From: an uncultured Clostridia bacterium
GTDB lineage: Bacteria > Bacillota > Clostridia > Oscillospirales > QAKW01
DNA length: 64,000 nt
Assembly: GCA_944385895.1 (NCBI GenBank)
Contig: CALWYZ010000008.1
Coordinates: forward strand, 1 to 64,000
Direction: 5' to 3'
The notes under the pieces are model-generated. The model saw nothing but the letters and a program-made list of their open reading frames with translations. It made no database searches and was not told the DNA's origin. Position numbers and translations under genes: made by a program. Shown here piece by piece: positions 50,838 through 53,210 of this stretch (positions are counted from its first letter, which is position 1; each line of letters starts with the position of its first letter).

Positions 50838-52247
50838 TTAAACCTTTTTAGCAACAACTACAAGCCTACCGTTTTCACTTGAGTATTCGCATGTGGAAAG
50901 CGTTATAAGCTTTTCTCCGTATTGAGCGGTCACACCGGTATCGTAAAGCGAATATGATTTACACGTTGCAATAAAATCATCATATTCAGCCTGCGTGGAG
51001 GCATTTATAAAATTATAATAATCAAACTCACCCATTACCGCCTCAACCTTAAATACGGACAAAATCTCATAAGTACCGTAGTCATTCATCGTATCAAACC
51101 GTATATATCTGTTGTTCTTAAAAAAGTCCTCTGACAAATATTTCTCCAATGCTGAAAACATCGTTCCATTACGCATATTATGACCGTATATAATAGTATT
51201 ATCAGATACATCTATTTCACAGGCCTCTGCAATATAAGGGGTGCCGTAATAGCTGTATTTTTTTTCAAAGTCACGGCGCAGATAAAAATCCTTACGGTCG
51301 GGAGCAAACATCACAGGATAATTTATATTGGTTCCGTCAATGGATATCCAGCCTGCAAAATCTGAATTCTGTTCATAAAGCGCCGCGTATTTCTGAGAAG
51401 CTGTAATCTGAGTATCTTCATTAACATTTTCCGTAATTATCATACTGTAAAGCCGTTCAAACCCAACAGCACTTTTATTCGCCTGAATATAATAGTCTGC
51501 GACCTTATACAAAGATATAATAAAAACAACAGCAAAAACCGCAGTCAATGCTCTGTAAATAATTGATTTTTTATCAACGTACGAAAATACACACAGCCTG
51601 GCTGTGAAACGGAGCACCGAAGCCTGCCGTTTATCGAGGCCACCGCTGAAAGTCACTGCTTTACGGCTGCCGAATATCTTGTAAAATATAACGCACGCGG
51701 CAAGATAGCTGCCCTGAAGAGACGGATGATAATTATCCTCACTGTTATAAAGACAGATATTTTTATCAACAAGACTGCAAAGATAAAAAGCGCTCCCGAC
51801 AGGAGCAAGCCGGCACCTGTTTTTATCAGCCGCAGTCCTATACGCAGTTTTCAGCCCGGTATACATTTTTCGATACGACAAGCCTGTACTTTCAAGCTTT
51901 TTTGAGCCGTTCTGATATGCCCATGTCTGATACAGAACCGGCTTTGCATGATGCTCACGAACAAGTTTTATCAGTTTTTCGACGTTTATCTGAAAATCTG
52001 CCGAATCTGTTATGGGATTCCTGCTCTGCTCCTGAATTACGACATAATCCCAGTTATTTTGCTTCAGCTTATCCAACAGCAATTTTCCGGCATCACTTTG
52101 GGCATCATTATAATTTTTCAAGTAAAATCCGCCGAAAGCAACATAGTCGGTATTAACTTCACATCCGGCAGATTCCGCTATCCGGCCAAACAGCGACGGC
52201 ATTTCATTATAAGAAGTGAAACTGTTTCCTACAAACAAAATATTCAC
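50838..52247 (-). CDS. SGNH hydrolase domain fused to a class B sortase
   Basis: The 469-aa product has residues 1-200 as an SGNH/DUF4886-like hydrolase: Ser9 in ILFVGNSFTS, GG at 39-40, VVIQEQSRNP, and Asp171/His174 in DNYHPSLQGSY. One hydrophobic helix lies at about 227-254. Residues 285-469 are a class B sortase with His356 in IIYGHNM, Cys453 in TLSTCEY and Arg461 in GRLVVV. Sortase is a surface transpeptidase. With no signal peptide and one helix, the hydrolase should stay in the cytosol if the sortase is outside. The start has only weak ribosome-site similarity. No LPxTG/NPxTG substrate gene is beside it. Confidence 0.85.
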   Translation of the reverse strand: MNILFVGNSFTSYNEMPSLFGRIAESAGCEVNTDYVAFGGFYLKNYNDAQSDAGKLLLDKLKQNNWDYVVIQEQSRNPITDSADFQINVEKLIKLVREHHAKPVLYQTWAYQNGSKKLESTGLSYRKMYTGLKTAYRTAADKNRCRLAPVGSAFYLCSLVDKNICLYNSEDNYHPSLQGSYLAACVIFYKIFGSRKAVTFSGGLDKRQASVLRFTARLCVFSYVDKKSIIYRALTAVFAVVFIISLYKVADYYIQANKSAVGFERLYSMIITENVNEDTQITASQKYAALYEQNSDFAGWISIDGTNINYPVMFAPDRKDFYLRRDFEKKYSYYGTPYIAEACEIDVSDNTIIYGHNMRNGTMFSALEKYLSEDFFKNNRYIRFDTMNDYGTYEILSVFKVEAVMGEFDYYNFINASTQAEYDDFIATCKSYSLYDTGVTAQYGEKLITLSTCEYSSENGRLVVVAKKV

Positions 52248-52411
52248 AGTAATATATTCTCCGTTATAAATAATACATACAAAATTTTATAATATTATTT
52301 TACCATATTTATTTTATAAGTTCAACCAACATCATATTCCAATTTAAAAATACAAAACACAGAAAATCCGGGGCAGACATTGTCTGCGCCGGATTCAAAA
52401 TCATTTTTATA

Positions 52412-52855
52412 TCAACATTTTGCATTGTAATCTTCACACAGTAAATTCATTGCTTTTAACAGTCTATAAAAATAAATAAAAGGACCTACCAAAATTAAAG
52501 AGCCTAAAATGTACCACAGCCAATACGTCGAAGTGCCGAAATCATATTGTATATCTCTATATTTCGTCTCACTTTCTATACGCGCCGACAAAGAATAATA
52601 CCAAACCAAGCCGGCGATACCGCACGTTATATTTTGCAACAATAATGCCACTAATAAATAGTTAATAGTTTTTTTGCCATCACGCCTGCCGACAATGGTA
52701 TTGAGATCGATCCCTATCGACATCACTTCGACCAGACCGTAAATACCTAAAGTTACAATAGACAATAATATAAATTTGATCAACGATCTGTTGGTTTTCA
52801 GCTTTTGTACAGGAGCTGCAACCTGATCTGTCTCTACAAAGTTATATTGTGACAT
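52412..52855 (-). CDS. DUF4234-type membrane protein
   Basis: The 147-aa product has the segment FILLSIVTLGIYGLVEVMSIGIDLNTI, typical of DUF4234, and three further hydrophobic helices. Function unknown. The ATG at 52855 is chosen for its AAGGGGG site; an open extension of 18 codons upstream lacks one. Monocistronic. Confidence 0.75.
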   Translation of the reverse strand: MSQYNFVETDQVAAPVQKLKTNRSLIKFILLSIVTLGIYGLVEVMSIGIDLNTIVGRRDGKKTINYLLVALLLQNITCGIAGLVWYYSLSARIESETKYRDIQYDFGTSTYWLWYILGSLILVGPFIYFYRLLKAMNLLCEDYNAKC

Positions 52856-53210
52856 AATAATCCCCCTTAAATGCAACATATTTTTATAACGTTGTATAAT
52901 TAAAATCATGTCAATAGATTTGTTTAAAGCAGATCAATATATGCACAAAACTAATACAATATTATAGTTTGAACAGTGCACTACAAAATAACGTTGTATC
53001 CAGATAAAATCGCAACCTGCTTCATGCGGTAATAAGGGAACAATAAAATACCAAGTTTTTTCGATCAATTTCATTTAAATAAACAAAAAGAGCCCGGAGT
53101 TCAAACCAACTCCAAGCCTTGTTTGTAACAGGGGACAATAAAGATACATGCATAAAATTTTCAGTCAAGGGTTAGACTTGAATCTGTACTAATATGACAA
53201 AGACATTTTA
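52856..53210. other. Intergenic, no gene seen
   Basis: AT-rich, with a short stem ggagtt / aactcc at about 53096-53113 inside an A-rich context. The opening aaaaagagccc also appears at about 10664; too short to call a repeat. Confidence 0.4.

Follow-up and report, generated by a model that had tools for sequence, protein, structure and literature searches.

One gene in the window (the whole 64,000-nucleotide stretch analysed) almost certainly encodes a DUF4886-type SGNH hydrolase domain, a transmembrane helix and a class B sortase as a single polypeptide (Table 1). The common picture of a sortase is that of a simple, membrane-anchored surface enzyme. With moderate confidence, we consider the product to be a type II membrane protein carrying an outer sortase and a tethered inner SGNH domain, which would have arisen by recent end-to-end fusion and whose two activities would be independent of each other.

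The DUF4886 family of Pfam (PF16227) matched residues 55–195 of the protein (E = 4.4e-17; 62.4 bits against a gathering cut-off of 26.7), and the Pfam sortase domain matched residues 301–469 (E = 2.3e-13). The NCBIfam class B sortase model TIGR03064 matched residues 228–464 with 155.3 bits, narrowly above its cut-off of 153.75. In a PDB sequence search, the putative SGNH hydrolase 4s1p matched residues 1–188, and many sortase B structures matched residues ~226–468. Hydropathy analysis revealed one strong hydrophobic helix (windows starting at 226–238), and an AlphaFold model built from a ten-sequence alignment placed a helix at residues 228–272. The sortase half of the model was of high confidence over most of its length, with top Foldseek/PDB matches that were all sortase B. 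The SGNH half was weak (pLDDT < 50 over residues 108–228) and still matched 4s1p; its active-site geometry was left out of the argument because of the low pLDDT. In alignments, S9, D171 and H174 (the block I Ser and the block V Asp-x-x-His) were invariant among DUF4886 homologues, and H356, C453 and R461 were invariant across the fusion and five sortase homologues. These results confirm the sequence-only reading that one open frame joins an SGNH/DUF4886 domain, one transmembrane helix and a class B sortase, with the SGNH Ser and Asp-His and the sortase His-Cys-Arg all present.

Table 1. Features of the fusion gene (positions in the window) and loci of sortases with other N-terminal regions in the same order
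Feature	Position	Strand	Remarks
DUF4886(SGNH)-TM-class B sortase fusion gene	50838..52247	-	469 aa, GTG start; ORF call, Pfam, NCBIfam and PDB matches
GGAG ribosome-binding motif	52259..52262	-	11 nt before GTG
DUF4886/SGNH hydrolase domain	51582..52247	-	residues 1-222, predicted cytosolic
S9 codon	52221-52223	-	SGNH active-site Ser
D171 codon	51735-51737	-	SGNH active-site Asp
H174 codon	51726-51728	-	SGNH active-site His
Single membrane helix, signal-anchor type	51492..51566	-	residues ~228-252; hydropathy, alignment, model
Putative extracellular stalk	51402..51491	-	residues 253-282; inferred; model low-confidence, partly helical
Class B sortase domain	50841..51401	-	residues 283-469
H356 codon	51180-51182	-	sortase catalytic His
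C453 codon	50889-50891	-	sortase catalytic Cys
R461 codon	50865-50867	-	sortase catalytic Arg
CinA (full or C-terminal part)-sortase fusions	L058:1618-3852, L104:2425-5046, L108:3425-6544, L095:2894-6247, L051:8202-10925, L049:8616-10424		several families of the order
Class B sortases whose N-terminus is degenerate and CinA-like; others with a long acidic tail (probably disordered)	L096, L097, L103, L107, L109, L111; L094, L098, L106, L110, L112		

That a sequencing error or a chimeric contig merged two genes is extremely improbable, although the assembly of the window's genome (G000) comprises 30 contigs and the halves of the gene differ somewhat in G+C (0.43 vs 0.38). A second genome from this genus, separately named (G001, CALXGU010000037.1), keeps the frame open from the GTG to residue 247, inside the helix, where its contig ends, and the complete fusion is thus known from G000 only. 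Both genomes have the GGAG motif ahead of the GTG. The two proteins were 87% identical over the stretch common to both, and dN/dS between them was 0.20 over residues 1–195, 0.16 over the linker (residues 196–222) and 0.20 over the helix, indicating that a protein-coding frame runs through the junction and is under selection in two lineages. The frameshift or chimera that the sequence-only reading had allowed for is therefore largely excluded, as the in-frame junction and helix recur in a protein that has diverged by 12% and whose codons show purifying selection. Candidate in-frame starts near the junction were GTG at 198, GTG at 211 and TTG at 234. None of the three is preceded by a good ribosome-binding site, nor did a sequence scan of residues 195–233 turn up any better-placed start, and a start at TTG 234 would drop the charged residues ahead of the helix; lacking a usable internal start, the sortase is most simply made only within the fusion. 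The DUF4234 gene upstream (52412–52909) showed a dS of 0.036 between the two genomes, about 10-fold below that of the adjoining fusion gene (0.353), and recombination or transfer is possible there.

A search for this architecture, covering 394 genomes from the order and 391 from the class, recovered it in G000 and G001, with no third DUF4886-sortase fusion in either set. A genome-contig search returned only the G001 record plus one distant DUF4886 match. Against viral contigs, the single-protein query matched nothing, and the sortase and DUF4886 alignments used as queries retrieved sortases only and no fusion. The closest sortases (44–57% identical) have short tails with no DUF4886 attached, and the sortase tree grouped the window's sortase among such short-tailed enzymes. 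The closest DUF4886 proteins (about 41–44% identical) are standalone, ~190–220 aa long and without a signal peptide. The fusion helix aligned to the N-terminal helix of the short-tailed sortases, and the junction, "DKK-hydrophobic", aligned with their "MKK-hydrophobic" beginning. As judged from these alignments, the gene is a clean, recent end-to-end fusion of an apparently complete hydrolase gene to an apparently complete short-tailed srtB. Relatives do encode the domains as separate genes, a finding that the earlier reading had counted against the join; it marks the fusion as derived, not false.

Neighbouring DUF4886 and srtB genes were considered as a possible ancestor and rejected, as only one genome (G024) has both within 5 kb and its sortase belongs to another clade. 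On one strand, that locus (L048:290–7355) carries an ABC transporter, DUF4886, sbcD, sbcC and srtB. Since DUF4886 and srtB genes from the right clades were nowhere found side by side, read-through from neighbours is suggested by analogy. Another fusion of this SGNH family, to an M20-type peptidase/deacylase, was seen in G008 (L037:1480–3237).

The analogy comes from CinA. A search with one CinA-sortase fusion as query showed CinA and a class B sortase in one uninterrupted frame in ten genomes of the order (G038, G014, G056, G073, G061, G047, G328, G025, G032 and G238), and further such fusions were found in G369 and G158. Several comprise MoCF_biosynth, CinA_KH and CinA domains followed by a helix and the sortase, and in several both halves scored above the curated NCBIfam cut-offs. 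Elsewhere (e.g. G019, G043, G164, G370 and G226), cinA and srtB are adjacent but separate, or their frames are split by one stop. The fused and the adjacent, unfused states together indicate that such a fusion route occurs elsewhere in the order, and sortases with a predicted cytosolic enzyme at their inner end recur there. Where a class B sortase begins with a degenerate CinA-like region or an acidic tail, it often lies in a tandem sortase array. The CinA-like remnants, judged by eye, suggest that this N-terminus can decay, and such decay speaks against a compulsory chemical tie to transpeptidation. Several CinA-sortase fusions adjoin cysteine desulfurase and thiI genes, and some bear C-terminal SpoIID or Ig-like domains. 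A literature search on CinA plus sortase found no description of such fusions in the library covered.

The sequence-only reading had placed the SGNH domain in the cytosol and the sortase outside, on the ground that no signal peptide is present. Both points are supported as predictions: there is no signal peptide and the sole strong helix falls between the domains, so that the SGNH domain is predicted to be cytosolic. Positive charges in the 15-residue flanks of the helix were slightly enriched on the inner side (3 vs 2). It is very improbable that both domains lie outside, with the SGNH domain exported by an unrecognised route and working on the wall beside the sortase. Some DUF4886 relatives do look exported (e.g. 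the lipoprotein-like L019); however, the fusion has no signal peptide and only the one strong helix between its domains, and the nearest standalone DUF4886 proteins likewise have no signal peptide. About 227 residues precede the helix, unlike the canonical short tail of class B sortases. The earlier statement that a short cytosolic tail is normal is true of the nearest relatives but not across the order, where N-terminal regions of 160–670 residues recur. The "topology conflict" described on that basis is real as a predicted topology but not unique, since CinA-sortase fusions also occur; given that long regions before sortase domains recur in the order, we see no real conflict. A literature search on sortase topology and architecture returned nothing relevant beyond a C. 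difficile SrtB paper (PMC4591827).

Sorting signals were sought in G000 through weak matches to the srtB_target model TIGR03063, PF00746 and inspection of C-termini; nothing in the genome exceeded the TIGR03063 cut-off. A 297-residue protein (contig C7), whose gene lies upstream of a camelysin-like gene, ends in an SPDTGDN signal, and a 645-residue protein (C13) ends in EPDTGDN. Their G001 orthologues carry APDTGDN and TPDTGDN, respectively. The former orthologue (L139:251–1156) is broken by an in-frame stop, which reflects either a pseudogene or a sequencing error. G000 carries two class B sortases, the second of which sits in an integrated conjugative-type element (contig C3; L042, L137). 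Some 18 kb from that sortase, the element encodes a 1408-residue adhesin with SpaA repeats and a thioester domain, ending TPKTGDD-hydrophobic-charged. The genome thus contains the xPxTG-type signals (SPDTGDN, EPDTGDN and TPKTGDD) that the sequence-only reading had proposed to look for as NPxTG-like motifs. In C. difficile, the recognition motif of SrtB is (S/P)PXTG, and the enzyme links the Thr to the diaminopimelate side chain of peptidoglycan peptides; the substrate proposed for class B sortases is mature peptidoglycan, not lipid II (PMC4591827). The window's sortase is the likely enzyme for the chromosomal signals, and the presence of matching signals suggests that the sortase part is probably ordinary. 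A near-complete genome of the same genus (G002, 99%; L140) has a GPQTGDN signal, yet a sortase was not detected in it.

DUF4886 is listed without a known activity or a characterised member, and carbohydrate esters are the substrates of most SGNH families that have been characterised (PMC9487903); a literature search on DUF4886 returned nothing relevant beyond this review. The aligned DUF4886 set contains no GxND that would supply the block III Asn, and has an invariant Q72 in "QEQS/QEMS" there. On this alignment, the missing Asn is a trait of the DUF4886 homologues and not of the fusion. The fusion holds the only DUF4886 match in G000 and may therefore be the sole source of that activity.

In our preferred explanation, the fusion would have been born recently in the ancestor of the two related species, and the single-pass protein would insert with its N-terminus in the cytosol. 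The outer class B sortase, probably the chromosomal housekeeping sortase, would cut xP[D/Q]TGD signals between Thr and Gly and then join the surface proteins to peptidoglycan. The inner DUF4886 SGNH domain, its Ser-Asp-His intact, would probably hydrolyse O-esters of small molecules or carbohydrates. The fusion would set location and dosage, and most likely neither activity depends chemically on the other.

Independence is the more probable state. The SGNH domain could alternatively be a passenger whose membrane tethering is without consequence, a neutral outcome that agrees with a young and rare join and with the apparent decay of CinA-like N-termini elsewhere, which suggests that such domains can be dispensable. 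We judge it unlikely, given a dN/dS of ~0.2 over the SGNH domain, the retained active-site residues and the lack of another DUF4886 match in G000. The selection on this domain argues for a working enzyme but not for cooperation with the sortase. The sequence-only reading had suggested that the esterase may prepare a lipid- or sugar-linked substrate inside for use at the surface. In such a coupling, it would strip an O-acyl group from a precursor (a lipid-linked wall intermediate, or a sorted protein not yet exported), which the sortase half of that molecule could then use outside. Coupling would predict an SGNH active site that is retained under constraint, as it is in both species, and the carbohydrate esters targeted by most characterised SGNH families would suit it (PMC9487903). 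It is nevertheless unsupported and quite unlikely: DUF4886 has no activity on record (PMC9487903), closely related sortases have no SGNH domain, and in other lineages CinA occupies that place, apparently decayed in some. In C. difficile, the class B enzyme uses peptidoglycan diaminopimelate as its acceptor, not a sugar ester (PMC4591827), and the known class B acceptors disfavour a precursor hand-over from esterase to sortase.

A bolder proposal is a trans-membrane bifunctional enzyme in which anchoring outside would be tuned by the cytosolic hydrolase of the same molecule, through its action on a metabolite or precursor or through sensing of one. We regard this as decidedly doubtful, and as equally doubtful that the CinA-sortase fusions would then be a second, independent link between inside and outside. 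Judging by the predicted topology of the DUF4886 and CinA cases, Clostridia have repeatedly joined a cytosolic enzyme to the inner side of a sortase. If these pairs are functional, they would connect cytosolic metabolism with surface display in a way that is unstudied; otherwise, they would be gene fusions without biochemical logic and a warning on reading function from domain fusion. In addition, the fusion gives the uncharacterised DUF4886 family a testable genetic context.

Compared with known systems, the fusion resembles SrtB (TIGR03064; C. difficile 4ux7/5gyj, B. anthracis 1rz2/2oqw) in its full catalytic domain with His-Cys-Arg, its membrane helix at the N-terminus of the sortase and its xPxTG-type partner signals, whereas SrtB has a short tail in place of the 222-residue folded hydrolase before the helix. 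It shares with the DUF4886 protein Shel_16390 (4s1p) a complete domain and the active-site residues, at ~31% identity in a structure alignment; however, the nearest DUF4886 relatives are standalone and soluble, while the domain in the fusion is tethered to a helix and a sortase. Similarly, the CinA-class B sortase fusions combine a cytosolic-type enzyme, a helix and a class B sortase in one polypeptide, but they carry CinA (NMN deamidase family) instead of SGNH, involve separate sortase clades, span several families and in some cases have the extra C-terminal SpoIID or Ig-like domains.
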